From contig NC_092670.1 in assembly GCF_964355755.1 (NCBI RefSeq), positions 17,979,201 through 18,043,200 on the forward strand: DNA of 64,000 bases, in the 5' to 3' direction. Positions 10,031 through 63,330 of this stretch are shown here, piece by piece. Source of the stretch: Antedon mediterranea. Lineage: Eukaryota; Echinodermata; Crinoidea; Comatulida; Antedonidae. Within the stretch, counting starts at the first letter, position 1, and the number at the start of each line of letters is the position of its first letter. Both the position numbers and the translations under genes were made by a program. The notes under the pieces were generated by a model, which saw only the letters and a list, made by a program, of their open reading frames with translations, had not been told where the DNA came from and ran no database searches.

Positions 10031-11327
10031 TATAGTGGGAAAACTCGTCTTGAAACATGTACTAGGTCCACACGACTATTAACTCTGATTCATAGTATAT
10101 CTGTAATGTTTACATTTTTACATTAACTACACTATAGTACAGATACTTCATCTTTCAGCAGTAGTGACATCATATGTCACATAACAAGAACATTCTAAAT
10201 ATCTGATTCAGTATAATGACAAGCCGTGTGGTATAAGTACACACTTCATAAAGCACACTTTGTCGGCTGCAATATTTCAACACACTACATGAAATAAATA
10301 AATAAATAGATAACCAAACTGTAGGCCTATTCTAAATCATTCTGAATTAGTTCAGTGCGTATGGTTTACTATTAGGAACGGTACCGGTACATAGTCGATC
10401 TTAATGTAACATCTATATACTATTTTGTTCAAAACGAACTAATAGTAATAGATGATTACCGGTTTGGTTCTAGGCAGCTGCAGTTTACCACTTGCTAATA
10501 ATCAGACCACGTTAGATACAAATTCATGCCGATACACAACCAGGGTTTTGATTTATCAAATAATGCTTAGAAAAAAAAATCATCTTAACCCAAAACAAAT
10601 AATACTATTCATATCATGTACTTTAGTTTTGATTCTTCGAATATTGTATTATATTCGAAGTACAATATTGTATCCATTTTGTAAGATGAAAATCACTGAT
10701 TTGATAAATAAACGTCAGATTTTCATTTAAGCACTTCTTTAACTGTTTGACATAAGCAAACAGATTGATAAATTCCAGCTCAATTCTGTATAAAATAAAA
10801 CATTTTGTCTATTGGTTTACCACTGGCATCACGAAAAGTAGATGAAAATATGTATATACGCATGCGCATAAAACAACTTTTCGATTCGCGTGAATAAATT
10901 ACAAAACATCCCTTTCTGATAAAATGTCAAGGGAGAGGAATAATAGAAAGTGAATTATTATTAGTGTAATTTCTGGGATAGTTCTAGGGACTGTTTGTTG
11001 AAAATACTTTTCTTCCACTTTCGCATAATTATAATTATGTGTTGTCATCAAAGGTACTATTGATAAGCCTAATTGTATTACTCACTGTGTGTCTTCAATT
11101 CCATTTCAAAAATCATACATTTAGCTAAGACATTATTACATACAAGATTCGTAATTTAATAACAGAAATTAGTCACTGTTTATTTTTAGACCTCGTCTAG
11201 ATATTCGGGAGTTTTTTTCTCCATATTTTTTTACCAGTAGTATTTATTTCGTTCTAAACATTAAATGTTTTCTGATGTCAACTCGTTTCGTCGTCTATGC
11301 GGAACCAAGTTTAATACGACATTCTAA

Positions 11328-11757
11328 CTACGGTTGCCATACTATTAGAGTCCTCTATCTACGGTTGCCATACTATTAGAGTCCTCTATCTACAGTTGCC
11401 ATACTATTATAGTTATCTATATACGGTTGTCATACTATTAGAGTCCTCTATCTAAGGTTGCCGTACTATTAGAGTCCTCTAACTACGGTTGCCGTACTAT
11501 TAGAGTCCTCTATCTACGGTTGCCATACTATTAGAGTCCTCTATCTACGGTTGCCATACTATTAGAGTCATCTATACCGTTGCCATACTATTAGAGTTAT
11601 CTATATACGGTTGCCGCACTCTAGAGTCCTCTAAATACGGTTGCCATACTATTAGAGTTCTCTATTTACGGTTGCCATACTATTAGAGTTGTCTATCTAC
11701 GGTTGCCGTACTATTAGAGTTCTCTATCTACGGTTGCCATACTATTAGAGTTCTCTC
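11328..11757. repeat. 31-bp minisatellite, 14 copies
   Basis: The unit is CTACGGTTGCCATACTATTA followed by GAGTCCTCTAT (31 bp), repeated about 14 times with point changes such as GCCAT/GCCGT and TCC/TTC/TTA before TCTAT. It lies in otopetrin intron 1. Confidence 0.9.
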
Positions 11758-12146
11758 TTTATAATTCTGTACAATCTTGTTTCTTGTTTTCCTGTGTATT
11801 CAGATTTTGTAAATAAATGTTTATTGAATGAATGAATACGGTCCTCTAAGCTTTCACTCTTTTATCGTTTTCATCAACTTCCATGAATATTATAGTAAGT
11901 ATAATTACTCCCATGAATATTATAGTAACTTATACTTCTAATAATAATTAACATTACGCTGCATTATTATCCCAAGACCTAATTCATTGACCCTATCTCA
12001 CCGTGTATTGATCAGTATCAATCACCCGAGAATTCTTATCATTAATAACATAAAGTTTTAATTTCAGTTTTGATTCCGGTGACCTTAATGTCTAGTGATA
12101 TAAAAGAAGCTGGAAAAACTACAAGAGGTTACCGAAAAGTTACATA

Positions 12147-12395
12147 AAATTGAACACCGCGTAAATTGAACACCGCTTAAAATGAACACCGCGTAAATTG
12201 AACACCGCGTAAAATGAACACAGCGTAAATTGAACACCGCGTAAAATGAACACCGCGTAAAATGAACACCGCCTAAAATGAACACCGCGTAAAATGAACA
12301 CCACTTAAAATGAACACCGCGTAAATTGAACACCGCGTAAAATTAACACCGCGTAAAATGAACACCGTCTAAAATGAACACCGCGTAAAATGAAT
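12147..12395. repeat. 15-16-bp minisatellite, about 15 copies
   Basis: The unit is AAAATGAACACCGCGT or AAATTGAACACCGCGT. About 15 copies alternate irregularly between 15 and 16 bp. The array produces spurious minus-strand ORFs whose translations repeat (FTRCSIYAVF-like), which should not be annotated as genes. Confidence 0.9.
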
Positions 12396-14979: not shown

Positions 14980-15366
14980 GTAAGTCCAATTTGAATATTA
15001 AATACTTTACTGAATACTAAATACTGTAGCCATTGCATTTTCCTAAATACAGTACAACCAACGCAAGGTCCAATCACGATGCGATGAATCATCCCAACTG
15101 TCGCTTGTGATTGGTCAACTCATTTGTGTTGTGCCTACGTCGTTGCATTGCTTCCGAATGTCTCGTGAATAGAGACAACCGTAGAGTTGAAACATAGTGT
15201 CATTCGTTTCACCCTTATAAGAGTATATATTTTTACGAGTCGAAGCCAAGTGAAAATATAACCTTTCCAGCTTTCACCGAATGAAATTATTTGTACTATA
15301 ACACATATATAAAACTAGTGAAATATTTCATTACTTTAATCATATTCAATCATGTTTTTTGTTCAG

Positions 15367-16274
15367 GTTATAACTCGACGAATCAAACAACGGAGCTATA
15401 CCAATGTGACAAGGGCGAAGGTTTAAGTAAAGCTGTTTACTACGCCTCCAAGTACCTATACTCATTCACAGTCGAGTACAGCATCATGGCTGCTGGTTTA
15501 GCGTACGTCATGTGGCAGAACATTAATCGACGCATTGAGCACAGTCACAACCACAACCACTCTGCACATACCAGTCACGACTACACGTTTAGCTTCGAGT
15601 GTGGTTTACTTCTCGGTGTCATCATGACAATGTGTGGTGTGATTATACTTATCTTAAACATCATCTATACCAAAGACCCGCTAAAGAAAGACATGTCGTT
15701 TGAAACCTACCACGGGTATCGTATATTCCTCAACATTATATGCAGCATAGCGTGCGCGATGGCTTTTTATGGAATATATAAAGGTGGCTGGAAATATGAA
15801 CACGTTGAAGGGCCTATGCATCATTTCGACGTCAGTATGTTATTCTTGTGCGTTGCCGGTTCGTTTCTTCAGAGTCTGTTTACGTTCGTGGCTTCCATCG
15901 CGACTCTCGGAACGTACAAACACGCCGGGCTGTTACTGTTTGATGAATTGACCCATATGGGACAGACTGTCATTCAGATGTTGCTTATGTTGGCAGCTAT
16001 GAGTCGAAAACCTCCTGAAGATTTCAAAGAAACGCGTACCAAGCAGATTCTGATGTTCTTGCTTGTCTGCAATGTTGCCTGGTGGATCTTATGCTCATAC
16101 GAGTTAAAAGGTGGATACGACCTCTTTGCTATGGAAAATGATTACTACGGATCCAGTGCCTGGTATGTGGTGATCCATCTGGCCGCACCTCTGGAGATCC
16201 TCTTTCGCTTCCATTCGACCGCTTGCTTTTTCGAGATCTGGAGTTCTGGCAAACCAGTCGATTCCGATGCATAA
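15367..16274 (+). CDS. Otopetrin proton channel, last coding exon
   Basis: This exon completes an otopetrin, a plasma-membrane channel that conducts protons inward at low extracellular pH. In vertebrates the founding member is needed for otoconia and for sour taste. The exon is 908 nt, follows acceptor TTGTTCAG|GT, and ends with TAA at 16272. It encodes about 300 residues with at least six hydrophobic helices, such as LLLGVIMTMCGVIILILNII, FLNIICSIACAMAFYGIY and ILMFLLVCNVAWWILCSYEL. The end, ILFRFHSTACFFEIW, is the conserved otopetrin C-terminus. A His-rich loop (IEHSHNHNHSAHTSHD) follows the first helix and is unusual. The whole model is 622 aa, normal for the family. The family assignment is firm; which of the duplicated otopetrins this is cannot be said. 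Confidence 0.92.
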
Positions 16275-17769: not shown

Positions 17770-20346
17770 TCAAAAATATGTCTCCGATGTGTCTTGTTCA
17801 TAAGATGAATTAAAGATGGCACCGATCATTTCTTCTTCATTATCTCTTTGTTCTGTACGTGGAGGAACATGGTCTGCATATGCTGTGATGTTATGAGTCG
17901 CCACCAAACCGCTTTTGTGTTCCTTCTTTTGATCATTCAGTTTTGTTGTAGACGACCTCACTTTAGACCTTTTAGCATTAGCTTCTGCAGTATTCTGTCT
18001 CACAACATGTGGCTTTAAGTTGGTTATACTGTGAAACTTTTCTGTAGATTGTAAATCAATTTGATTGTCATGTTTTGAATCTAGTGAAATATCAATGGCG
18101 TCCACGTTAGTAGCATTTTCTATCGTCACATCATCCGTAAGCAGCACACTTTGAATTTCTTGATACGTCGTCTGCGCAGGTCTATTTAAAGCGCCATTTG
18201 CAACATCAACATCATCAGGTTTTAAAATCGATTTCGTACTGTGACGATCAATGCGTTCTATTGGATACGCTTTGGCCAATAACTTGTTGTTAGTCTTTCT
18301 AGGCTGCACTGTGCGCGACATCCAGTAGTAAATCAAACAACAAGCTATAAACGTCTGGACAAAGACGGCTATTCCAATCGCTAGTCCCGCCACCATCCCG
18401 GCATCCTCTAGTGTTTCTCGTACATGTATAGGGTAAATTTGAATAGTTTCCTTAACAGTTCCAACAAAGTTAGATGCTACGCACGAATAACCACCTCGAT
18501 CTTTCCAGACGATATTCGTAATTTTAAGAGAACTGTTGGAAAACATTTGAAATTTTGGAGCGTCGGTTTCGGTGAGTGCGGTATCGTTTAGTAATAACCA
18601 GGAAACAATGGGTTTGGGAATTCCAGACGATTCACAAATCAGTAAAACATCCTCACCTTCATTTATATAAAGCATAGTATCGTTTAGATGAACACGTGGC
18701 AGAGAACATAGCAGTTGTGTCTCCGTAAGATCGACTACTTTATTTCCTTTTAGATTAGGCGGTCCATCACAGACAACCAGATCAATAAAATGGTTCTGTT
18801 TTAACCACGTGTGGTATGCTTTCAAACGACAATCACAATGTACTGGATTACTGTTCATGTTCAGTTCTGTCAGATGTATCTGATTTTGAAAGAAGTCATC
18901 ATCAATTGTTTCAATCAAGTTCTTTCTTACGTCGAGTACTTCAATGACGTCAGCATTCAAGAACTGTGACGTCTTCAAAGTAGCCAACATATTATCAGTT
19001 AGTATAAGATGGATTAAACTTCTTCCAAGAACATAAAAAAATCCTGAAGGAATATTAATTATATTGTTACCCGAGATATCAAGAACTCTGAGATATGTTG
19101 AAGTGTTAAAGGCAATAGACAAGTTACTGAGCCATTGAGAGTCGTGGTTTCCACCAATTTGGATTTTAGAAAGCCCAGGAAGATCTGCACATGCACCAGT
19201 TTCAAGAACACGTATATAATTGCCGCTGATATCAATCGTCTTTAGTCGGAGTAACTGTGAAAATGTCCCGTCACGAATTTTTTGAATATTATTATTATTG
19301 AGATAAATTTGTTCGATAAAGTTCAATTTGGTGAATGCAAACGGCGAAACATCAAATACTCTGTTGTGATTTAAAGAAATGACGTCAACGTTTGTAATTA
19401 TATTTTGAAATGAAGATGGTACGATAAACTCAACCTGGTTGTAATCCATAAGTAGCTTTGTCAGAGACACCCCAGCGTGGCTATCTTCATCATCATCAAT
19501 GGCATCTACAGTTAAACTAACATCCAAAAGATCCGCTATGGAGTTACTTTCTATGTTGAGCAACCTTAAGGCCCCGGCTCTAACGACTAACTCACTCAAA
19601 TGGTTGTAAGATAAGTCAAAAACATCCATAGCACTATCAGTTTCAAAATGGAAACTCGTCAGGGAATTGTGACTAACATCAACGTTTCTAATGTTTAAAA
19701 AACTCGTAGATCGATCTAAAGCAATAAATGCATTTATCTTGTTCATACTCATGTCCAAATTGACCAATGAGGGTAGTCCTTTAAAACTGTCATCAACCAC
19801 GTGATTTATATAATTCCGTTTAAGAGATAGTTTCGTGAGTTTTGGTAAATTTAGTTCAGGTGTAGATAAGAAATCATTATTTTCAGCAAGTAGTGTTTTA
19901 AGAGAAACAAGTTCATTCAGATCTGGAAGATGACTAAGACGATTACTAGATAAATCTAAAGACCTCAGTTTAGATAATCCTTCAAACGCTCCAATGCTAA
20001 CATCACTGATATGATTTCCACTTAAGTCGATCTCAATAAGACGATTAGCTTCAACAAAAGACCCTTCAACCAGAAGATCAACAAGGTTATCCCGCATCTG
20101 GAGAACTTGAAGATTTGTCGAATTCTTCAGATCATCCTCCTCAATGTATTGGATATGATTATTATTCAAGATAAGGATTTTTGTTCGAAGATTAAAATTT
20201 GGAATACATGTCAGGTTCATTGAGATGCAGACTGTCGTGTCCGTTGTATCGTCAAAGTCACACGTGACGTCACAATGCCCTATTACATAACCAATGATAT
20301 TCAGAGTAAAGACCAGTGTAATGATCCAGCGAGTAGATCTATCCAT
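17770..20346 (-). CDS. LRR-Ig single-pass transmembrane receptor
   Basis: One uninterrupted coding exon gives 858 residues. A signal peptide (about 1-24, hydrophobic WIITLVFTLNIIGYVIG) is followed by a Cys-rich LRR N-cap (Cys25, Cys29, Cys40, Cys47). Leucine-rich repeats run from about 54 to 498 (for example LIEIDLSGNHISDVSIGAF). Then come an LRR C-cap (NPVHCDCRLKAYHTWL, about 500-548), one C2-type Ig domain (Cys571, Trp583, Cys622 in a GYSCVASN motif), a transmembrane helix at about 650-676, and a tail of about 180 residues ending ETYF. This layout is that of cell-surface adhesion or signalling proteins of the LRR-Ig type (Kekkon/LINGO/LRFN/LRIG-like). No kinase or TIR domain is present. The start is set at 20346 because a strong splice acceptor lies just upstream, making the further in-frame codons to 20400 intronic. 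The subfamily is undecided. Confidence 0.88.
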   Translation of the reverse strand: MDRSTRWIITLVFTLNIIGYVIGHCDVTCDFDDTTDTTVCISMNLTCIPNFNLRTKILILNNNHIQYIEEDDLKNSTNLQVLQMRDNLVDLLVEGSFVEANRLIEIDLSGNHISDVSIGAFEGLSKLRSLDLSSNRLSHLPDLNELVSLKTLLAENNDFLSTPELNLPKLTKLSLKRNYINHVVDDSFKGLPSLVNLDMSMNKINAFIALDRSTSFLNIRNVDVSHNSLTSFHFETDSAMDVFDLSYNHLSELVVRAGALRLLNIESNSIADLLDVSLTVDAIDDDEDSHAGVSLTKLLMDYNQVEFIVPSSFQNIITNVDVISLNHNRVFDVSPFAFTKLNFIEQIYLNNNNIQKIRDGTFSQLLRLKTIDISGNYIRVLETGACADLPGLSKIQIGGNHDSQWLSNLSIAFNTSTYLRVLDISGNNIINIPSGFFYVLGRSLIHLILTDNMLATLKTSQFLNADVIEVLDVRKNLIETIDDDFFQNQIHLTELNMNSNPVHCDCRLKAYHTWLKQNHFIDLVVCDGPPNLKGNKVVDLTETQLLCSLPRVHLNDTMLYINEGEDVLLICESSGIPKPIVSWLLLNDTALTETDAPKFQMFSNSSLKITNIVWKDRGGYSCVASNFVGTVKETIQIYPIHVRETLEDAGMVAGLAIGIAVFVQTFIACCLIYYWMSRTVQPRKTNNKLLAKAYPIERIDRHSTKSILKPDDVDVANGALNRPAQTTYQEIQSVLLTDDVTIENATNVDAIDISLDSKHDNQIDLQSTEKFHSITNLKPHVVRQNTAEANAKRSKVRSSTTKLNDQKKEHKSGLVATHNITAYADHVPPRTEQRDNEEEMIGAIFNSSYEQDTSETYF

Positions 20347-20360
20347 TGTATAATGTGTTA

Positions 20361-20375
20361 TCTGAAAGGTAAGTA
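20361..20375 (-). promoter_or_regulatory. 5'UTR splice acceptor of the LRR-Ig gene
   Basis: On the minus strand TTTACTTACCTTTCAG ends at 20362, 15 nt before the ATG at 20346. It is a near-ideal 3' splice site, so the gene probably has at least one upstream non-coding exon. This decides the start codon. Confidence 0.65.
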
Positions 20376-20401
20376 AAAAGTCGACAATGACATATAACAA
20401 T

Positions 20402-23160
20402 GTATAGTACTATGAGTCTAGTCTAGTTGATACACGGTACTTAATTCATTGCAAGCCTAATTAGTAAGCCTAATATGGGTTCCAGCAGGGGTAATTATTT
20501 ACTCTTCCCTAGTTTCAGACCTTATCCTCAGTTTGAATGGTGAATACGGCCACAGGACTCTGTTTGCCGATTGCCTAATAATTTTAGATCCAGAAGAGTC
20601 TGTATATAATAACTTCATGATGAAAAATTCTACGCCACCTACAAACGACTCAGTATCAATTTCAATGTATATTTACGACTAAGCAATTTGTTTTAGGAGT
20701 TTTCCAATAATCAAACTATTACAAACTATTAATAGACACAATGTACTAATAATAATTCTACGTTGATGAGCTACGATTATATCTTCAGCTCAAAAATCAT
20801 TAATTGCGTAATAACAAGATTCTGTGTTAATTGTCAGACGTCATAAATAATAGTACGAATAAAGAATGTATTTTAGGCATTTTCCAATAATTGATCTATT
20901 AAAAAACTATTAATAGACAAAATGTGTTGATAAATTCTATGTTGATAAGCTATATTACTGTATATCTTCAGTCAACCAGTCATATTAATACGAAGCTACT
21001 ATTGAATAAGGGAGTAGGCCTATACAACCTGATAGCCTGACGGTGAGGTGATAGCAAATCGTTCTTACTTAGATCATAGAGATCTCTATGCTTAGATCAT
21101 AGAGATTTTTTTCCTTTCAAGCTTAGAGATCATGTACAACAACCTATATAACATAAGATCTACTGAATAACTCCATATAAAATAAATACGAGAATAAAGT
21201 TACAGAAAATATTATTAACACTTTTAAAATACATAATAATGTGTAGTGAACAATTAAGAAATGTTAGTATTTACCTTGCGATATTATACAATATTCCTGT
21301 GGTTGAATTGATTCGGCCGGTAGTCAATCTCACTCCAATTAAATAGACACGATAGGAGGATGCAACAACCATATGTTGATGGATTTAACAAACACAGTAC
21401 ACTGTTTAAATAGTATGCATGATGACACAACACAAAACGTAGTTGTTTTAATGAAAGCCAATACCGTAGTATGTAGAGTACACGTTTTTATTCGATTATT
21501 TTTCTTCGTTGGTCGAGCATGCGAAAGTAAACACATAACCAAAATGGACGTATTTAACAAGTTCAATGCTGTTATTTTCTTAATTTGTACGCATTTATTT
21601 GCAGGAGTCTGTATCTACAGTGTGTTTCTATTTGGTACATCATTTTTTAGCAAGAGTTAATAAACATCACTGCATGTGTTTTTCAAAAAAACAAAGCATT
21701 AACGCCCACTTGGAAGACAAAACAATGAGATATCACACTAACAGATGATATTTATTGACTGGCTTCATGTGAAGTTTTAAAATAAACGATCTAGGCCCAT
21801 CATACCATGTCATATTGACTTTATGTGAAGTTTTCCAATGATCGAGAATTACGCACGTCACTTTCAATCATTAAATACTCAAAATAAAGTATACTGCAAT
21901 GTAAACACATGTACTTGTACATGACGTCACATCGAACTTAAAACCAATAATAGAATCACAATTACTACATTTATTAATAAAGATATTTTTGTTAAGTGAT
22001 ATAGACACTAACACAATAACAAACCATATTGCCATAAACAGACAAAAATGAAAACAAATTGTGGAAAGCGTAATGTCGGAAGACGGAAAACGTTAAAAAG
22101 AAGAAGACATAGGCCTATTCAATATAAAAAGGCAAAAAATGACAATGCTGTGGGTATCAGACGTGGCTAGACCTCAGTGGAGAAGAAAAGCTAAATCAAT
22201 ACGATAAATTAAAACAGCTAGAAAAAATAGCAGAGCTTTTGGGTAACACTAGCCCTTTATCACTGGAAGTGAGAGTACTTAGACAAAATTGAAGATATGA
22301 ATCAGATAAGCGACAAGAAAAAGAAATATACAATATTGTTTCAATTTCTATCAGTAATAGGAATTCACGTAGCCCTGTTTCATCCATGTTTCTTCCCAAA
22401 AGACTTTTCGTTCAATTAAATTACCCAAGCAATTACTAACAAACATCAACAACAATTATGGCAAATAAAGTTTTAAAAAAAAATTAAAATCAACACTATG
22501 TGTTTCTAAAAGAAAGGTTGAGAATATTTCCAGAATACGACTGAGCATAACAACCGACACAGACGTCAGTTCTACAGCATTTCCCTTTAGCAACATAATT
22601 TACCACAAGCCTAACTTTACTACGATTACGGCAACAATAAACATGTATCTATGTTTTATATCTAATTATAATAAACACAGTAATTTTAGCTGTTGTTAGT
22701 TATATACACTTATCCCCATGTGCAGAACGTTGTGTACATCTAATGTGAACAACGTGTTGTTGTATAATATTTAGAAATAGAGCAGCAATGTGAGGTGTAA
22801 AGAATTAAGTTAACAATACTGCTGCGTGTTCACAGTTTAAATGTGTTTAAAATAGTAATGTTGATTCTGGTCTCACACTTCTTTAGGCGTAATATAAATT
22901 AATAGTATCCGATCACATAGTATCACTATGTCACTATACAGTTATATTATTTATCAGAAAGTATCAGTAGTATACACTATAATATAATATATTATAATCA
23001 TCAGAATATAAAATATAATACATGTATAATTTTCTAATCTTATTTTTTTTATTTTATTTTTTATTTTATTCAGTCAAAACCAACAGCGATAAATACCGCC
23101 ACTAACAGGTTTGAAACATGAAACAATACAACATAAAAAACGGTTAACAATAAAATACAG

Positions 23161-23464: not shown

Positions 23465-24390
23465 AAACAGGTTATGCAGGCTGTTCAAGAAGTGAACACA
23501 TAATCGTCCTCTTAAAATAACCAAGTCTATCATTAAAAATATCGATATGATTGCTATTTAGATTATTAAATGTAAAAGGTAGTCTATGAAAAAGTCCCCT
23601 CTTAGTACAGTCGACACGGCTAAAAGGAATATGCAATAAATGTCTATTTCGTGTACGACCAGGAACATTTAAACTAAATAGTGAAATTAATGAACAGTCA
23701 TATTTAGAATTTAAAATATTATATAGAAAAACCATATCAGATATCGTTCGACGATTGCTGACAGAATCAATGGAAAAGGCAAAAAAACACAGTTATAAGA
23801 CAGGAATCGTACAAACTTCCGTTGAACAGTATCGATTCGACGGGCCTTGCATGGAGAAATTGAATTGAAAATTACGGAACAATATTCAAGGTGAGGACGT
23901 ATAATAGATTTGTATAAAGATAAAAGTGCCCTGCCGTCGTTCATAAACCTACAATTTCTCCATATTAAGCCCATCATTCTATTAGCTTTTGACAACACAT
24001 GATTAATATGTGAACAAAAATTTAATTTACTATCAATAAAAATACCTAAATCTTTCCATATATAAACCATCTCAAGATCATGTCCATTCAGTTATAATTG
24101 AAGAGCACAGGCCTTTTTTAAGTGTTATAGATAAATATTTGCATTTATTAGCATTAAGTTTTATCCCCCACTTCTCCGTCCATTCCACGAGACCATCCAG
24201 ATCCTCCTGAAGTGAAAAAGCATCCTGTGGAGTGGTAATCACTTTAAACAATTTCAGATCGTCAGCAAATAAAAGAGATTCGGAATGATTAAATTTTAAA
24301 GGAAGATCGTTGATAAATAAATTAAACAAAAGCGGGCCCGGGATCGAGCCCTGCGGAACGCCCGATAACACAGGGGGAGCCAATCATCAA
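23465..24390 (-). pseudogene. 5'-truncated, frameshifted non-LTR retrotransposon (LINE)
   Basis: Three minus-strand frames add up to the end of a LINE reverse transcriptase. 24078-24383 carries the RT motif SGVPQGSIPGPLLF and the catalytic FADD box (LLFADDLKLF). 23711-24070 carries the post-RT thumb region (DLGIFIDSKLNF, IIRPHLEYCSVIF). 23472-23735 carries the C-terminal segment (GLFHRLPFTFNNLN). Frame changes near 24075 and near 23735 break the ORF. The endonuclease and most of the RT are missing upstream. The motifs fit a Jockey/CR1/L2-like clade; the exact clade is not determined. The perfect palindrome follows at its 3' end. Confidence 0.85.
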
Positions 24391-24492
24391 ACGTGAATAA
24401 TTGTATGTATACACATCAGAAAAGTCTTGCAAAAGATAAATAAAACATAATCAAAAAATGTGTATATTTCCGGTTTTACAGTTGAGAAAAAC

Positions 24493-24834
24493 TGCAGTAG
24501 GACTATTTTAAACTGCAGTAGGACTATTTTAAACTGTAGTAGGGCTATTTTAAACTGTAGTAGGACTATTTTAAACTGTAGTAGGGCTATTTTAAACTGT
24601 AGTAGGGCTATTTAAACTGTAGTAGGGCAATTTAAACTGTAGTAGGGCTATTTTAAACTGTAGTAGGGCTATTTAAACTGTAGTAGGGATATTTAAACTG
24701 TAGTAAGGCTATTTAAACTGTAGTAGGGCTATTTAAACTGTAGTAGGGCTATTTTAAACTGTAGTAGGGCTATTTAACCTGTAGTAGGGATATTTAAACT
24801 GTAGTAGGGCTATTTAAACTGTAGTAGGGCTATT
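24493..24834. repeat. 19-21-bp minisatellite, 17 copies
   Basis: The unit is AACTGTAGTAGGGCTATTTTA, with shorter 19-bp variants lacking one or two T. About 17 copies are present, the first two carrying GCAGTAGGAC. The gradient of variants across the array fits slippage or unequal exchange. Confidence 0.92.
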
Positions 24835-25479
24835 TTTTATTATTAATATTATCGATTGTTCAACAGTTGTGTGGAACATGAAAACAATTTGTTCTTTATT
24901 TATTCCGAGATAGATTCAGCAAAATGTAAAAAAACATAAAAAGTAACAAAACAAACAAACATTCCTTAAGATGGCTTAGGATTGACTTTAGTTCGATCGA
25001 GAGCCCGTCAACCTGGTCTTAGGAAACAACTACAAAAATAAAAACAAAACCATCGAAATTCCATATTAAAATAACGGCAACTGAATAAAACGTTTATTTA
25101 GGTCTACAATTTACAATGTACAGTTAAAATTTGGCATTAAATTATCTCGTTTCGTTTTATAAAATTACATTAACTTATCATGGGAAGTCAAACATTTACT
25201 TTTTTAATTCATATCAGTAATAGAATTCCCATACTGTTTTCATCTAGTTTTCCGAAAAGACTTTTCTAAGAACACGGTCTAAAGTTCAATTAAATTGCTC
25301 AAGCAATTTGTTTGTTTGTTTTATTAGTTTCTCCACACATTTTAAAATAAAAGATAAAAATTGCAAAATAAGTTGCGGACAACCTTAAGTCGTGACCACC
25401 AGTTAAAAAATGAAGGTATACAATAGCAGTCCGGCTTACATAAAAAAAACAGAAGCTTAAATTGCTAAGTTAGCAATTA

Positions 25480-32227: not shown

Positions 32228-32930
32228 ATCGCGCGATCATCATCATCATCACCCATCAACGACACTACATTCTAAAGGACACTCACAATTAGCTTATCCA
32301 TATAAACCAATCCACCAGCATCCGATGCCAGGGATAATGCACGTTGGACAAATGGCAGAAAATATGTCGTATTACCGACATCCACAAAACAATTTTCAGA
32401 TTGGACCACATGCCGTTGATCACTTTCAAGGACGAAACTACCAACCGCATCATACGTCATACAACACGCGGGACTTATTACTAGCAACGACAACGCAGCA
32501 GACCAACTTGAAGCAACAACTACAGTCTATTTATTCATCACCACCAATCACAACCGAACAAATCGCTCACACAGAAATCGACCTACAACTATCGAATCCT
32601 AACTGGTTAGACACAACAACCCCTATAAACCAAGTATACCCGGAATCGGTCGATCGGAAACGAAAGCGAGAAGCCGACAGTACCGACGGTAGCGATTCGT
32701 CATCTTCAACATTCCGAAACGGACAATTGCAAATAGACACGAACAATAGATACAATGGTTACCATGGAAACATTAGATACCAAGAACTGTACTCCAATAG
32801 TGACACCCAAACTCCTTATTTTGATCAAACAGTCATTAGCGCCGAAGCACATTATGGTACTAGTGGATCCAACAATGTACATTCGGTGTTAAAATCTATG
32901 AGACAGACATGTTATGAGCAGGCGCAGTAG
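32228..32930 (+). CDS. T-brain-type T-box factor, last coding exon
   Basis: Acceptor TTCATAG|A opens 703 nt ending at TAG 32928. The exon encodes the 234-residue C-terminal region: a His run (five His from a CATCATCATCATCAC stretch), then Gln/Asn/His-rich low-complexity sequence with no known domain, as expected for a transactivation region. The complete protein is 626 aa. T-brain proteins regulate mesoderm and, in sea urchins, the skeletogenic lineage; its role here is inferred. The last 49 codons, the stop and about 65 bp of 3'UTR make up the first unit of a 215-bp tandem array that continues downstream. Confidence 0.9.
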
Positions 32931-33406
32931 AAAAACATAGTTTACAACATTGTATAGGCCTACACGTATGAGAATGCTTGAACAACATGACAGACGAAGA
33001 ACTGTACTCAAATAGTGACACCCAAACTCCTTATTTTGATCAAACAGTCATTAGCGCCGAAGCACATTATGGTCTAGTGGATCCAACAATGTACATTCGG
33101 TGTTAAAATCTACGAGACAGACATGTTATGAGCAGGCGCAGTAGAAGAACATAGTTTACAACATTGTATAGGCCTACACGTATGAGCATGCGTGAACAAC
33201 ATGACAGACGAAGAACTGTACTCAAATAGTGACACCCAAACTCCTTATTTTGATCAAACAGTCATTAGCGCCGAAGCACATTATGGTACTAGTGGATCCA
33301 ACAATGTACATTCGGTGTTAAAATCTATGAGACAGACATGTTATGAGCAGGCGCAGTAGAAGAACATAGTTTACAACATTGTATAGGCCTACACGTATGA
33401 GCATGC

Positions 33407-33601
33407 GTGAACAACATGACAGACGAAGAACTGTACTCAAATAGTGACACCCAAACTCCTTACTTTGATCAAACAGTCATTAGCACCAAAGCACATTATG
33501 GTACTAGTGGATCCAACAATGTACATTCGGTGTTAAAATCTATGAGACAGACATGTTATGAGCAGGCGCAGGAGAAGAACATAGTTTACAACATTGTATA
33601 G
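33407..33601 (+). pseudogene. Duplicated T-box C-terminal ORF, array unit 4
   Basis: A 64-codon ORF inside unit 4 repeats the T-box C-terminus (ELYSNSDTQTPYFDQTVIS...). Its former TAG reads GAG, so it runs on to KNIVYNIV before TAG. It has its own ATG, created by the repeat junction (MNNMTDE). It is probably untranslated 3'UTR; a nearly identical ORF lies at 33837-34031. Confidence 0.6.
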
Positions 33602-33836
33602 GCCTACACGTATGAGCATGCGTGAACAACATGACAGACGAAGAACTGTACTCAAATAGTGACACCCAAACTCCTTATTTTGATCAAACAGTCATTAGCG
33701 CCGAAGCACATTATGGTACTAGTGGATCCAACAATGTACATTCGGTGTTAAAATCTATGAGACAGACATGTTATGAGCAGGCGCAGTAGAAGAACATAGT
33801 TTACAACATTGTATAGGCCTACACGTATGAGCATGC

Positions 33837-34031
33837 GTGAACAACATGACAGACGAAGAACTGTACTCAAATAGTGACACCCAAACTCCTTACTTTGATC
33901 AAACAGTCATTAGCGCCAAAGCACATTATGGTACTAGTGGATCCAATAATGTACATTCGGTGTTAAAATCTATGAGACAGACATGTTATGAGCAGGCGCA
34001 GGAGAAGAACATAGTTTACAACATTGTATAG
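33837..34031 (+). pseudogene. Duplicated T-box C-terminal ORF, array unit 6
   Basis: Same 64-codon ORF as at 33407, differing by Ala for Thr in the VISAKAHYG stretch. The two copies share the lost stop codon, showing that the change arose once and was then copied with its neighbour unit. Confidence 0.6.
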
Positions 34032-34094
34032 GCCTACACGTATGAGCATGCGTGAACAACATGACAGACGATTACTTACGATCATGCATAGAAC

Positions 34095-34100
34095 AATAAA
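34095..34100 (+). terminator. Polyadenylation signal candidate of the T-box gene
   Basis: AATAAA lies 23 bp after the tandem array and 1.16 kb after the stop. A second AATAAA is at 34483-34488, after a TG/T-rich stretch. Either could end the transcript, in which case the 3'UTR would include the whole array. Confidence 0.45.
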
Positions 34101-39948: not shown

Positions 39949-40144
39949 GTCCGCAACCTGAAGTCACATTAAGCCGCGGCCACACAACTGGTAAAACAAA
40001 TGGCATAAACTATTTGATAATCTATATCCATGTTTCTATACCACCCCTATAATTTAAGTCATAATTAATCTTATAAATGATTCATGATATTATGTTTTTT
40101 GTAGGTTGCAAAAAATTTATGTTTTTTTCTCATTCTTTCTTAAG

Positions 40145-41014
40145 CGCCTGGACAGCGTCCGAAATATGATGATAGAGAGTGGACAATTGAAAAGAAGACG
40201 TCTTTTCCATCAGCACTGTAGTAGACGTCATAACAATCTGTCGCACTACACCAAGAGGCACTTGTACGTATTGGACGAGTATAAATTAATGTATTGCTTC
40301 ATCCCAAAGGTAGGCTGCAGTAATTGGAAGCGAATATTGATGGTCCTTCACGGGGAAAGAACAAGTGTCGATGGCCTAACATCTGAAGAAGTCCATGCGC
40401 AGAGCAAATTACCTTTCTTTCATAAATACACAAATCAACAGCAAGAACATGCCATATCAAATTATACCAAATTTTTCTTCGTTAGACACCCGTTCAAACG
40501 TGTTCTCTCTGTATATAAAAACAAATTCGAAAACTTGCAAAATTACCAGGCAAAACCATTGTTTCAAAACTACGGTAAAAAGATAATCAAACGGTGGCGG
40601 AAAAATCCAACTCAGCATGACTTGGAAACAGGCGAAGGGGTAACGTGGCCAGAATTTGTCAATTATTTGATACACGTGCGCGAAAGAGAGAAATTCGAAA
40701 AAGACGACTATTGGAGTGATCATTGGCGGGAAATGCATAAACTGTGCTCACCGTGTGAGTTGCAATACGATTTCGTTGGCAAGCTGGAAGAAATTACGAC
40801 AGAATCTAAGTATTTATTGGACAGGTTGAACATCAGTGGCAAAGTCAAGTATTTGTCCTCAGCAAGTAGCCGACCGACAAATAGTTCGGATGAGGTGACT
40901 TACAAGAGTTATTTTTCTATGCTCAGTAAGGAACATATTTTGGGATTGTGGAAATTATATAAAACCGACTTTATATTGTTTGGTTATGATAAACCAGACT
41001 TTGTTCCAAAATAA
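40145..41014 (+). CDS. Carbohydrate sulfotransferase (HNK-1ST/CHST8-14 family), last exon
   Basis: A pyrimidine tract and TTTCTTAAG|C open 289 codons plus TAA. Together with exons 1-2 the protein is 343 aa, usual for the family (Sulfotransfer_2). These Golgi type II enzymes transfer sulfate from PAPS to sugars of glycoproteins or chondroitin/dermatan chains. The 5'-phosphosulfate loop is IPKVGCSNWKR (about 107-117). The 3'-phosphate site is FFFVRHPFKRVLSVYKNKF (about 165-183), with the invariant RHPF and Ser. Later conserved pieces are CELQYDFVGKLEEI and the C-terminal YKTDFILFGYD. Start codons inside the intronic run to 40106 are rejected because the splice frame fits exactly. Substrate specificity cannot be told from the sequence. 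Confidence 0.9.
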   Translation, partial: RLDSVRNMMIESGQLKRRRLFHQHCSRRHNNLSHYTKRHLYVLDEYKLMYCFIPKVGCSNWKRILMVLHGERTSVDGLTSEEVHAQSKLPFFHKYTNQQQEHAISNYTKFFFVRHPFKRVLSVYKNKFENLQNYQAKPLFQNYGKKIIKRWRKNPTQHDLETGEGVTWPEFVNYLIHVREREKFEKDDYWSDHWREMHKLCSPCELQYDFVGKLEEITTESKYLLDRLNISGKVKYLSSASSRPTNSSDEVTYKSYFSMLSKEHILGLWKLYKTDFILFGYDKPDFVPK

Positions 41015-41017
41015 TTA

Positions 41018-41275
41018 CATCAACGATACGTGATCACATCAACGATACGTGATCACATCAACGATACGTGATCACATCGATGTTACGTGATCACATCGGC
41101 GGTACGTGATCGCATCGACGGTACGTGATCGCATCGACGTTACGTGATCGCATCGACGTTACGTAATCGCATCAACATTACGTAATCACATCAACGTTAC
41201 GTAATCACATCAACGATACGTAATCACACTTACGATACGTGATCACATTAATGTTACGTAATCACACCGACGTTC
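41018..41275 (+). repeat. About 19-bp minisatellite in sulfotransferase 3'UTR, 13 copies
   Basis: Unit ACATCAACGATACGTGATC and variants (GACGTTACGTGATCGC, AACGTTACGTAATCAC) begin only a few bases after the stop codon. The ACGT core is itself palindromic in every copy. Confidence 0.92.
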
Positions 41276-47697: not shown

Positions 47698-47886
47698 AAA
47701 TGTATGCAGTTCAGAAACAACCGAAATACTATGTCCAGAGACACTATTCCCTGGTGTGTCCAACAAATGGTAGGCTTGTGTGACAAAACTCTATTTAGCT
47801 GAGCGATCTACTGTTGCCTTAAAGCTTATAAATATGCCAGTAACCAATGGCCATAAAGGAGGGTCAGGAAAGAGAACAGTTCACAG

Positions 47887-48054
47887 AGGTGAAATGCCAT
47901 CCACATCATGGTACCTGGGAAGGGCAAGAGGTGAAATGCCATCCACATCATGGTACCTGGGAAGGGCAAGAGGTGAAATGCCATCCACATCATGGTACCT
48001 GGGAAGGGCAAGAGGTGAAATGCCATCCACATCATGGTACCTGGGAAGGGCAAG
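47887..48054. repeat. 42-bp minisatellite, four near-identical copies
   Basis: Unit AGGTGAAATGCCATCCACAT then CATGGTACCTGGGAAGGGCA AG (42 bp), four copies. Because 42 is divisible by three, several frames on both strands stay open and translate as 14-residue repeats. This looks coding but has no start, splice or homology support. Confidence 0.9.
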
Positions 48055-48536: not shown

Positions 48537-49182
48537 TCAGAAAAGATCCAAAGAAGCTTCTTCCCTTCCGCTATTGTTCAGTATATATGCCATGATGTCA
48601 TCATTATCTAAATTAGAATCCGTGTCTGTAGGCTCTGCAAATAAATCATCATACTTTGATACCTTTAATTTGTTTGTTGTATTACTAATACCACTCGTTG
48701 CTTCAGGTTTCTCGGTTGATTTTGGTTCGTTACTGTTTAGATTTGATTCGTCTGTTGCTGGTTTGACACTCATACCAGCTTCTACCGCTGGTTCTGATGA
48801 TGCCACCGGTTCCGTTGGTACCACCGGCTCTGTTGATAACACTGGTTCTGTTGGTACCACCGGTTCTGTTGCCGGTTTGTTTACCAATTTTGGTTTACTT
48901 GCTATGTTTGGTTTGCTTGCTACACTGGGTTTACTTGCTAAGTTTGGTTTGCTTGCTACAGTTGGTTTGCCTGCTATGTTTGGTTTAGTAGCAAGTTTTG
49001 GTTTAGTTGCTACCGATGGTTTGTTGGCTACAATAGGTTTACTTAGTACTGTTGGTTTATTTTTTAAAACAGGTTTAATTGTTACCTCTGGTATTTCTTT
49101 ACTTGGTACATCTTCAGGTACTTTTGTTTCTACTTTCTTCTTTTCCACACTAAGAAACAAGTTGTCTATGTCATCATCAATG
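48537..49182 (-). CDS. Lys-Pro-repeat protein, terminal coding exon
   Basis: On the minus strand a long pyrimidine tract and TTTTCTAG|C open 645 nt to TGA at 48537. It starts IDDDIDNLFLSVEKKK, then has about ten KP-containing units of six to seven residues (NKPSVATKPKLATKPNIAGK), then a block of PTEPV/STEPV repeats. It ends with an acidic tail (KYDDLFAEPTDTDSNLDNDD then IMAYILNN) and LDLF. The composition suggests a disordered scaffold-type protein with short LF/acidic motifs. I do not recognise the family. The frame joins exactly to an upstream exon at 51801-51927. The plus-strand 296-codon ORF across the same region is its shadow. Confidence 0.65.
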
Positions 49183-51800
49183 CTAGAAAAAAAAGAAAAA
49201 CCCATCAACATATTAAAGTTGGCCGTCAAGGCTTCTTGTATACTGGGTCTAAGGTGTGGAACAATCTATAGGACGATATAAAGCAATGTAAAAATATATC
49301 ATTATTTAAAAAGAAAGTAGATTGTATTTATATTGAACGTTATCAGTTTATAAAATATTTGTGTCGAGAAGAAAACTGTCTTATTTGCAGAGAAAAAAAG
49401 TAATCATCATTGTGTATTATTATTATTACTTACAATGTTATTAATTATATGTACTAGATGGTACGCTCGCTTCGCTCGCGTACCATCTAGTTCGTGCCCA
49501 CAGATGGTTCTCGAATACATAGTAATTTCAGCGTAAAAAAACTGGCGATTTCAAATGTACGTACGGCAGGACTATAAAACATTGTCGTTTACAGAAACAA
49601 ATAAATAGACACAATTATTTATGTAGTCAACCAAAATTAGCACCTAGAAACTTGTCACAAAATGAGTCGAAATTTGTTATTTGAACTCATTTAAGCAAAC
49701 CCAATTTTGTTAAATTATTCTTTATATTTCTTTATTATCCAATCAGTAACGAAATATTTTTTTTATAGGCCTATAAATAATATACCACTAAATAGAGTAA
49801 AACATTTCCGATTTAATAATTTATTAAAACTGTCACTGTCTCATGGTCGATTGAAATAGTAAAGTACATTTAAAGACCACTAATACGTTTATATTTTTGT
49901 AATTATTAATTAATACAAACGTTGAGAAACAACTGACAGTAATAAAGTATATTATGTGTTTATAATCTAAAAGTAGGAGCTACCCACACTCACAGTGATA
50001 ACGTTTATTAGTATATTTGTTTATATTCTAACAGTACCAACACACTTTTGATTCAAATGGCAATCAAAAGTGGTTAATACCTATTTCCAGTATTGTATAG
50101 CATTACAATACTATTTCTGTTTATTCTCCAAGGGTCTATAAATTTACCTACTTGTGTTAAACCATGGAGGTATGCAATAATTTGGAATGTTCCATTCATT
50201 GCAAATCAATACATTTCTATAAACGTATATTAAATCTATCAAAATAGTATTTTTTAAAGAAAATCGGCCTGTCTTCAACATTATGATGCTGTACTCGAGC
50301 TGTTCAACCGGTTTTCAGTCATTAAAAACAGTTATCTTAGGAGGAGATAGGAAAATGCGAAGCATCCTCGTATTATTGTTTGCGGGTATTTTTCACAATG
50401 GACATGTATTAGACAGTGTATACCACGATCGGAAAACATCCCTATTTGGGGCAAATCGTTGAACCTAAATTCGTTTTAATTGTCAATAACTAATTATCTG
50501 ACTCAATTTAATTAGTAAAAAGGGTTACATCAGGTGGTTAAAATCAGTACCGAAAGTACGAACCAACTTTATATACCATCGAGTAAACATTATAGAAGTA
50601 AGGCGCGATTTACCGAATTTTGCCCTTACGTAAATTTATATATAGATATATAAGTTAGTATAGTTTCATATTTATTATCTTGCAGTATTATAAAAAACTG
50701 TTTTTAGTAAATTTTCGATTCTTTCATGCATAGGCCTACCATTAAAATAATTTGTTTATATTTTTAAAGGGTGCCACAGTTGTAAAGCTTTGCTTGATCG
50801 TGGTTGCCCTATTCCTTTTCATATTATTGCATTTGTTTTAAAATTGTTAAGTTAAAAATTATGATTTGGAATAAAGTGAAGGAAAAATTCAAAAAAGAGA
50901 GATTAAAGTTTTCCATAGTATGTTATTGAGGCATTCGGAGTCCCAAACCCTTCCTTATGATTGTAAGCCTGTATTAGCACTTATTTCCTGAGATGGGCAA
51001 GAGCTTAGTTTGATAGCAGTGTTGCAGCAAACTGTTAAAAATAGATCAGGCAAAGATCTTTTACAATTATTAAGGTATACAAGGTGTGTCATGAGATTGG
51101 GAAAGTGGGGGAAGAAGGAAGTGAAACAATTGAAAGTTTTAGGCAACGTGGCCGCATGCTCGCTAAAGCCGTGTAGCATGGAGCCATCAACCTGCAGTAT
51201 AATAACCTTCTCACAGCATAGTAGAATCTCAATAGTATTATTTTGAACAAGACAAAATCAGGTCATATTGTGGTATGTTGTAAATATCAAGTAAATTTCA
51301 TGCAAATTATGAGTAACTTGAGGTAACAGACACAACTTACCATTAAAAAACAATGTATAATGACAATATTGAGAATACAGAATTATTTTATAATTTTAAT
51401 GGCGTCATCTGTAAAATTGAGGAACTTAAAATAAAGGTCATAGTGTGTATAATATCAAGCGTCCTCTACTTCTATGGTTTTCTTGTAACGAAATTCTTAA
51501 ATGTGAGTACAATGCATACATTTAATGTAAAACGACAAGCTGAATTTGTTTGTTTTTAACCATGAAGATATAAAAAAGTTTTATTGTGCAAATCTGCTGC
51601 TTATATACATTACATGTGTCTAATATAATATTTTTTTTACGTTGTTAACCATGACATGTTTCTAGACTTTTTAATGTTGTCCAATAAAATGTTTTGAGCC
51701 TTGAAATGAAACTTAGATGAAAATCAGATCTCTTAAAAAATTGTAGAAAAATTGGCGACTGAAAAAATTCTAAACATTAATATTTCTTAAGCAAACTTAC
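49183..51800. other. Intron of the KP-repeat gene
   Basis: Mostly AT-rich non-coding DNA. A 37-bp palindromic motif (TAGATGGTACGC...GCGTACCATCTA, 49454-49491) is a probable mobile-element end. A 35-codon ORF with a signal-peptide-like start lies at 50355-50462 on the plus strand. ORFs at 50955-51246 have no recognisable family. Confidence 0.45.
49454..49491. repeat. GC-rich palindrome (TAGATGGTACGCTCGC/GCGTACCATCTA)
   Basis: CTAGATGGTACGC and GCGTACCATCTAG pair around a TCGCTTCGCTC loop. Such GC-rich hairpins in AT-rich surroundings are typical of transposon ends. No partner end was found. Confidence 0.6.
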
Positions 51801-58599: not shown

Positions 58600-58930
58600 T
58601 ACAGTTACTGCATCAAATTGCAGTAAATTGATATACTGTAGGTATGCAGTAACTGCAGTAAATAAGTATGTAGTTACTTACAGTAAATACACATATGTAT
58701 GCAGTTAATGCATCAATTGCAGAAAAATAACATATCGTATGTACAGTAATTGCAGTAAAGTGACATAATGCAGTCACTGCAGTAATTTCAGTAAATCGAC
58801 CCATTTGTATGTACTGTAGTCACTGCAGTATTTGCAGTAATTGACACATCCATATGCAATCACTGCAGTAATTGCAGTAAAATGACACATACATATGCAG
58901 TAATTACTGCAGTAATTGCAGTAAAATGAA
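58600..58930. repeat. TGCAGTAA minisatellite filling the GPCR intron
   Basis: Irregular repeats of TGCAGTAATTGCAGTAAAAT, GACACATA and (A)TATGCAGT, about ten partial units of 25-45 bp. It occupies some two thirds of the 504-bp intron and reaches within about 10 bp of the donor. Confidence 0.85.
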
Positions 58931-58941
58931 AAAATGCGTAC

Positions 58942-59947
58942 CAAGAAGTTTAACGACCTGACGTCTTAACACATCTACTTTGTCGTCTTCTTGTATTTTA
59001 TCAGTGTGTTTAATTTTGTTTGAGGGACGCAAGGCAGATGACCTCCTCAAATTAATATTCATATACTTTCCACTCAGCGTCCTCGCGATCAACATGTACA
59101 ACACGGTCATTGTACTCATCGGCAGAACGAAGAGAAATACAGCGGACGCCATGTAAAAGTAGTTTAATAATAAATTCACGTCAGTTTTGGTGGTGCAAAC
59201 TTTAGATTCTGAAACACCTGGAATGAAAGTTACGACCTCATATGCTAACAGAAGCGGACTTGATATGGTATAACCTATGATCCATATAGGAATGATCACC
59301 TTCTTTGTACGATTTTTTGAGAGGATGCTCTTCGCTTTGATAGGATGACAAATTGCAACGTAGCGTTCGATCGTAACGGCCGTAATACACATTATCGTAC
59401 AGTATGTTGCCGAGTCGATGATGTAGTAATGACCAACGCAGAAGAATGTCCCGAAAATCCATGGACGGTACTGTACAGCTGAAAAGATCTCTCGTGGTCC
59501 AGTTAACGTTACCAAAACCAAATCGGAGACAGCTAGACACAAGAGATAATAATTAATTGACGTTTGTAAACTTTTCGTTCTTAGTATTACGGAAATTGTT
59601 AACGCGTTGCCGATTAATCCTGCTATGCAAAGAATACCGACAACAAGTACGTAAAAAATCATTTCATTCTTCCCGTTTGTTTTTGGCCCAACCAAACCAT
59701 TTAAAATAACATCAGTTGCGTCATACATACATTTTGACGTGTCTAAGTCAGAAGTGATCCATAAATCTGGATCATGAGCGCTGGAATTAACATGGCACAT
59801 GTCACCGAAATCAGAAGTGCATGGTTCGAGTGAATCCTGAACATTGTAATAGACATCTAACACAGCTGCAGATGTGTTTAGTCTTTTTACTGTTTCGCAT
59901 AGGTAGTTTAAGCTGTGTATATACTTGTCAAATACGGTATCTGTCAT
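58942..59947 (-). CDS. Neuropeptide-type class A GPCR, coding exon 1 (N-terminus-TM6)
   Basis: The ATG at 59947 (the open frame to 59974 begins with GTG and is not used) gives 335 residues before donor G|GTACGC. The full receptor is 437 aa. The N-terminal ectodomain (about 95 residues) has NxS/T sites at Asn24 and Asn54 and several Cys. TM1 has GN (Asn114), TM2 LAVSD (Asp142), TM3 starts after Cys170 and ends TIERYVAICHP (ERY, 194-196). Cys251 in loop 2 would pair with Cys170. TM5 contains FLFVLPMSTMTVLYMLIAR. IERYVAICHPIKAK and RRQVVKLLA resemble TRH and neuromedin U/ghrelin-type receptors, so it is a peptide receptor that probably couples through Gq. The ligand is not determinable. A likely 5'UTR acceptor lies at 60027-60028. 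Confidence 0.88.
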
Positions 59948-60026
59948 TGTTATCAGCTGACTTGAATAAGACACACTAAATGGTCACCAACTAATTCAGC
60001 AACAAATTGTCACAATCATTTCAGTT

Positions 60027-62190: not shown

Positions 62191-62734
62191 AAATGCTGAC
62201 TCTTAATTTTAATTGTAACATAGTGCTTCTTTATGTTGGCAAATTTTATGAATCTGTTTTTTTAATGTAATTTAATATGTATTTTTTATTAATAAAAATA
62301 CTAGTAAACATATTTTAATGAATAAATGATGAGACAGGGTTCTCTTAGCTTAATGTATTATTATCTGATCAAAGTAAAAACAATTTTTATTTATTTTTCA
62401 TATTTTCTGAATTATTTCTGTTAGCCTCATGGGCTTATACTAAGTTTCTATCTACCTACTAATCCTCATCAATAAGCTATTGGTTTAAAACTTTTTCTAG
62501 GCATTTAGACTAGAATTATATTATTACCCCCCACCATGAACAAGGTAACTTAATGCTTAACCTGTAACCCCAACCATGAACAAATCACAGATATGACAAT
62601 TCTAATAAACTTATTACAGATACCGTTACAGCTACAATATCAACTTACAGTTTGTGATTTTTTTTTGCACATTCAAAAATTATACTATTCTACCATACCA
62701 ACTGAACCACCAAATCAGCCAATGCATTTACCAA

Positions 62735-63330
62735 CAAACAAACCAAACACACACAACTAACCAACTAATACCAGACACACCTACTAAACCACCTAACCAG
62801 TCAACACATCTACCAATAAACTAACCAACACACAAACCAACACACACAACTAACCAACTAATACCAGACACACCTACTAAACCACCTAACCAGTCAACAC
62901 ATCTACCAATACTAACCAACACACACAACTAACCAACTAATACCAGACACACCTACTAAACCACCTAACCAGTCAACACATCTACCAATACTAACCAACA
63001 CACACAAACCAACACACACAACTAACCAACTAATACCAGACACACCTACTAAACCACCTAACCAGCCGACACATCTACCAACAAAAAAACCAACACACAC
63101 AACTAACCAACTAATACCAGACACACCTACTACACCACCTAACCAGCCAACACATCTACCAACAAACTAGCCAACACACAACAAACCAACTAATACCAGA
63201 CACACCTACTACACCACCTAATCAGTCAACATATCTACCAAAAACTAACCAACCAATACCTGAATCATCTACGGTACTAAACCACTAACACATTAAACCA
63301 AAGAACCAACCACCAATACCAAACCACCTA
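62735..63330. repeat. A/C-only tandem array, about 75-90-bp unit, 6-7 copies
   Basis: Core AACTAATACCAGACACACCT then ACTAAACCACCTAACCAGTC recurs at about 62766, 62855, 62937, 63030, 63110 and 63190, with a degenerate seventh near 63266. The plus strand is almost free of G, giving strong strand asymmetry. The minus-strand ORFs here (62912-63481) are artefacts of the repeat. Confidence 0.9.

Follow-up and report, generated by a model that had tools for sequence, protein, structure and literature searches.

A T-brain gene of a crinoid very probably carries at its 3′ end a young minisatellite-type tandem array, in which copy 1 maintains the protein and the further copies belong to the 3′UTR. It lies in a window of 64,000 nucleotides of Antedon mediterranea DNA (i.e. 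the whole stretch that was analysed, to whose numbering all positions refer). The best-supported interpretation is that the array, which we infer to be neutral or nearly so, straddles the stop codon by happenstance. If it is neutral, it illustrates clearly how a tandem duplication across a stop codon can persist: with the protein safeguarded by copy 1, the others turn into 3′UTR.

Array structure

TRF reports an array at the gene end with a period of 215 bp, 6.0 copies and 98% matches (span 32782–34071), which bears out the initial annotation of a gene-end tandem amplification, stop codon included, with five extra copies. The six copies of the 215-bp unit are arranged head-to-tail with start-to-start spacings of 215, 214, 215, 215 and 215 bp (Table 1), and pairwise comparison gives 0–8 differences per 215 columns (i.e. 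96–100% identity). The array is thus a minisatellite by its head-to-tail order, unit longer than ~10 bp and high identity. Between 31.5 and 35.5 kb, the longest exact repeat has 342 bases, whereas 100 dinucleotide shuffles give no more than 15.

Each unit corresponds to 48 complete codons preceded by 2 bases of another, then the stop and 66 bp of 3′UTR. The contents given initially (49 codons and ~65 bp) were right to within one codon, but the array was made to start at 32784, whereas the first copy begins at 32782. Likewise, a uniform 215-bp unit with a stop describes the other copies, but not copy 2 (one base shorter and frame-shifted) or copies 4 and 6, which are without the original stop.

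DNA, protein and 25-mer searches of the whole 354-Mb assembly place all six copies at a single locus and find the unit nowhere else. A dispersed satellite or transposon is ruled out because matches are confined to this locus. We also rejected a second T-brain gene as the source of the copies because the C-terminal protein matches only the array locus in the genome.

Table 1. Window positions of the host gene model, the array copies and the poly(A) signal candidates.
Feature	Start	End	Strand	Remarks
Coding exon 1, T-brain-type gene	28216	28928	+	gene model; first ATG in open frame; further 5′ exon possible
Coding exon 2	30383	30537	+	gene model; T-box
Coding exon 3	31044	31159	+	gene model; T-box
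Coding exon 4	31322	31453	+	gene model; T-box
Coding exon 5	31818	31879	+	gene model; T-box end
Last coding exon	32228	32930	+	gene model; stop TAG 32928–32930; final 149 bases form the coding portion of array copy 1
Array copy 1	32782	32996	+	functional gene end
Array copy 2	32997	33210	+	214 bp; frame-shifting 1-bp deletion; one ATG to ACG
Array copy 3	33211	33425	+	same as copy 5
Array copy 4	33426	33640	+	TAG to GAG, original stop lost; two amino-acid changes
Array copy 5	33641	33855	+	same as copy 3
Array copy 6	33856	34070	+	stop lost; derived bases in common with copy 4
AATAAA	34095	34100	+	first poly(A) signal candidate past the stop; about 25 bases beyond the array
AATAAA	34483	34488	+	second poly(A) signal candidate

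Host gene

The gene model consists of six coding exons with GT..AG borders and a single open frame of 626 amino acids, with the TAG of copy 1 as its stop. Its T-box is complete (PF00907, 238 bits, profile positions 3–182 of 182). Among solved structures, the T-box part scores best with TBX21 (233 bits), followed by TBX5 (210) and brachyury (204). In the printed alignments, the gene and TBX21 have ITKQGRR, SPNTG and LTNNKG in common, whereas TBX5 has ITKAGRR, SPATG and LTNNH. These T-box scores and shared motifs support a host gene of the T-brain/Eomes/TBX21 type, in agreement with the type first assigned to it. About seven sites in the genome contain T-box exons, and only one tbr gene is present in the echinoderms examined to date (PMC4166925). 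The gene is undamaged, with frame and stop preserved in copy 1.

Copy history and proposed mechanism

Copies 4 and 6 have three derived bases in common, including the one that turns TAG into GAG, and differ from each other at two positions; copies 3 and 5 do not differ at all. Copy 2 has one further change besides its 1-bp deletion. Between copies 1 and 3 there are four differences, three of them in the 3′UTR and the fourth silent. The changes among copies 2–6, although small in number, comprise a frameshift, a stop loss and three amino-acid changes against two silent ones, so that no coding constraint is visible.

We propose that a point ~25 bases ahead of the poly(A) signal was initially joined back into the last exon; the junction of this first duplication (ACAGACG/A/AGAACTG) has 1 bp of microhomology. 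The second copy would have expanded after this event, and we infer that the array grew by unequal exchange or slippage. The pair of copies 3 and 4 was apparently copied to give copies 5 and 6, and the 342-base exact repeat fits such copying of a unit pair. Both the very high identity and the pair-wise growth fit the recent expansion claimed in the initial annotation. Because copy 1 holds the frame and the stop, the protein is unchanged, and the extra copies could be tolerated by selection, becoming 3′UTR and drifting. Variation in copy number between individuals is plausible in view of the identity pattern.

Genomic background

The assembly has 11 contigs of 22–41 Mb and seven small ones, with a genome GC content of about 33%. 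We sampled 20 stretches of 10 kb (200 kb in all) from the 11 large contigs and scanned them with TRF. The sample contains 84 separate arrays, and tandem repeats make up 13.6% of its bases, a share raised by one stretch (L025, G000:C8:21230001-21240000). Tandem repeats with periods of 87 and 408 bp fill nearly all 10 kb of that stretch, which is probably a satellite region. Eight arrays in the sample have a period of at least 100 bp and at least 2.5 copies. None of the sampled arrays with a period of at least 100 bp reaches 95% identity, while shorter-period arrays reach up to 99%.

Extrapolation from the sample gives ~40 long-period arrays per Mb, at which density many gene ends would be expected in or near one. 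Such abundance of long-period arrays means that arrays at gene ends are to be expected, which weakens the implied exceptionality of this one. Within this abundant class, the T-brain array ranks towards the young and regular extreme, given that no sampled long-period array reaches 95% identity.

The neighbourhood is itself rich in repeats, as further minisatellite arrays in the window show: 11323–11756 (31 bp), 12145–12394 (16 bp), 24489–24836 (20/61 bp), 41017–41274 (19 bp) and 62697–63253 (79–172 bp).

Transcript and possible effects of the array

None of 11 poly(A) signal variants occurs within the unit, and no splice site in it is competitive: on a crude scale its best donor scores −0.1 and its best acceptor −0.4, below all five true donors (1.2–7.6) and all five true acceptors (1.2–7.4) of the host gene. 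With poly(A) signals only past the array and good splice sites lacking from the unit, the array should be transcribed unspliced, and transcription is predicted to run through its whole length. The five extra copies should then add ~1.07 kb of 3′UTR to the ~110 bases that the first signal would otherwise give. Of the two outcomes envisaged initially, a lengthened 3′UTR fits this anatomy; alternative 3′ ends do not, as the unit offers neither a poly(A) signal nor a competitive splice site.

Read-through of the stop in copy 1 would insert a residue at the stop itself and continue for eight further ones until the next TAG (about nine in total). In-frame extension of the protein by read-through was therefore rejected: as foreseen, in-frame copies cannot be added with a period of 215, which is not a multiple of three. 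The extra copies have open reading frames (ORFs) of 39, 52, 61, 52 and 61 codons, each from an ATG just upstream of the junction, and annotators should be warned that the array offers spurious ORFs of 52–61 codons.

We regard it as unlikely, though the strongest of the alternatives, that the array affects T-brain expression, with its ~1.07 kb of repeated 3′UTR or its small ORFs, if translated, altering mRNA stability or translation in a copy-number-dependent manner. The array necessarily lies in the 3′UTR if the poly(A) signal at 34095 or 34483 is used, and a 52- or 61-codon ORF persists in four of the five extra copies, but the in-frame ATG from which it starts, close before the junction, could easily have arisen by chance. 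In other genes, effects on expression have been looked for with a 40-bp VNTR in the DAT1/SLC6A3 3′UTR (PMC549191, PMC1325255), and downstream ORFs, when translated, can increase main-ORF translation (PMC7459409). The copies themselves argue otherwise: copies 2–6 have accumulated the frameshift, stop loss and amino-acid changes described above, the RNA of the unit is no more stably folded than shuffled versions of it (z −0.72), and the few motifs checked, i.e. the Pumilio-type TGTAHATA and ATTTA, are absent from the unit. A structured RNA was also rejected, given this fold and the lack of any Rfam match in the window. A regulatory effect via 3′UTR length or downstream ORFs is possible, but nothing in our analysis points to one. 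It is more doubtful still that the array acts as a copy-number-variable 3′UTR controller of crinoid T-brain dosage, via translated downstream ORFs or repeated RNA-binding sites.

There is very little chance that noisy or haplotype-mixed reads were mis-assembled into an array from a single gene end. Each copy has distinct diagnostic variants that form an ordered pattern, the array (1.29 kb) is short relative to long reads, the assembly is chromosome-scale, and the window is without N.

Finally, although each copy contains coding sequence, stop and 3′UTR, the copies can hardly be alternative last exons or alternative poly(A) cassettes with different C-termini, since the unit has no poly(A) signal, its best acceptor falls short of the gene's own, no donor in it is competitive, and the C-termini from the copies would be nearly the same anyway.

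Other features of the window and genome

The 8-base palindrome TAGGCCTA is ~40 times commoner than expected from a trinucleotide model, with ~94 sites in the 264 kb made up of the whole window and the 20 sampled stretches (L007–L026). It is not simply a piece of a single longer repeat, since the 12 bases flanking it on each side have no consensus; a literature search for the string found nothing relevant among the 15 papers listed.

Four identical 42-bp units at 47885–48054 lie in an open frame and encode the repeat peptide GEMPSTSWYLGRAR; their 100% identity suggests a very recent expansion. On the minus strand, a 242-codon open frame (48540–49265) contains degenerate 18-bp coding repeats (KPxxAx and TEPVVP types) and has no Pfam match, and RVT_1 reverse transcriptase fragments with broken frames (23475–24383, minus strand) mark a decayed retroelement. 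Neighbouring genes identified by Pfam encode an otopetrin (15285–16271), an LRR-Ig protein (17773–20409), a sulfotransferase (Sulfotransfer_2; 40088–41011) and a rhodopsin-family GPCR (58907–59983).

Crinotocin (CFWRTCPVG) is a crinoid peptide of A. mediterranea (PMC9793003). Its codons have exactly one exact match in the genome, while the reversed control has none; the match is preceded by a signal-peptide-like stretch, and GKR follows the peptide. This exact match marks the host as a crinoid, probably an Antedon-like feather star, whereas mitochondrial COX1 had no match in the assembly.

Comparison with known systems

We found nothing specific in the literature on tandem arrays that span a stop codon, and several known systems resemble this one in part. 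Coding VNTRs, as generally known, are likewise tandem repeats that include coding sequence, and their unit is a multiple of three. We rejected this identity for the crinoid array because its period is 215 and stops are present in every copy, so that the protein is not repeated.

The 3′UTR minisatellite of DAT1/SLC6A3 is similar in its head-to-tail order, its location in the terminal exon past the stop and the fact that extra copies leave the protein unaffected. In contrast to its 40-bp unit, the crinoid unit is 215 bp long and takes in the host gene's stop together with 48 codons; the crinoid array comes from one assembly.

In a partial tandem duplication of a gene end, one breakpoint lies in the last exon and the other beyond the stop, and the original gene stays intact. 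The crinoid array is alike in its breakpoints and intact gene, but differs in having six copies that arose partly as unit pairs.

The units of D4Z4/DUX4 are kilobases long and contain a whole ORF, which is expressed from the last unit, with a poly(A) signal only after the last copy. Both arrays include coding sequence and a stop in the unit and have a poly(A) signal only beyond the last copy. In the crinoid array, by contrast, the unit is only 215 bp long and the expressed gene end is the first copy.
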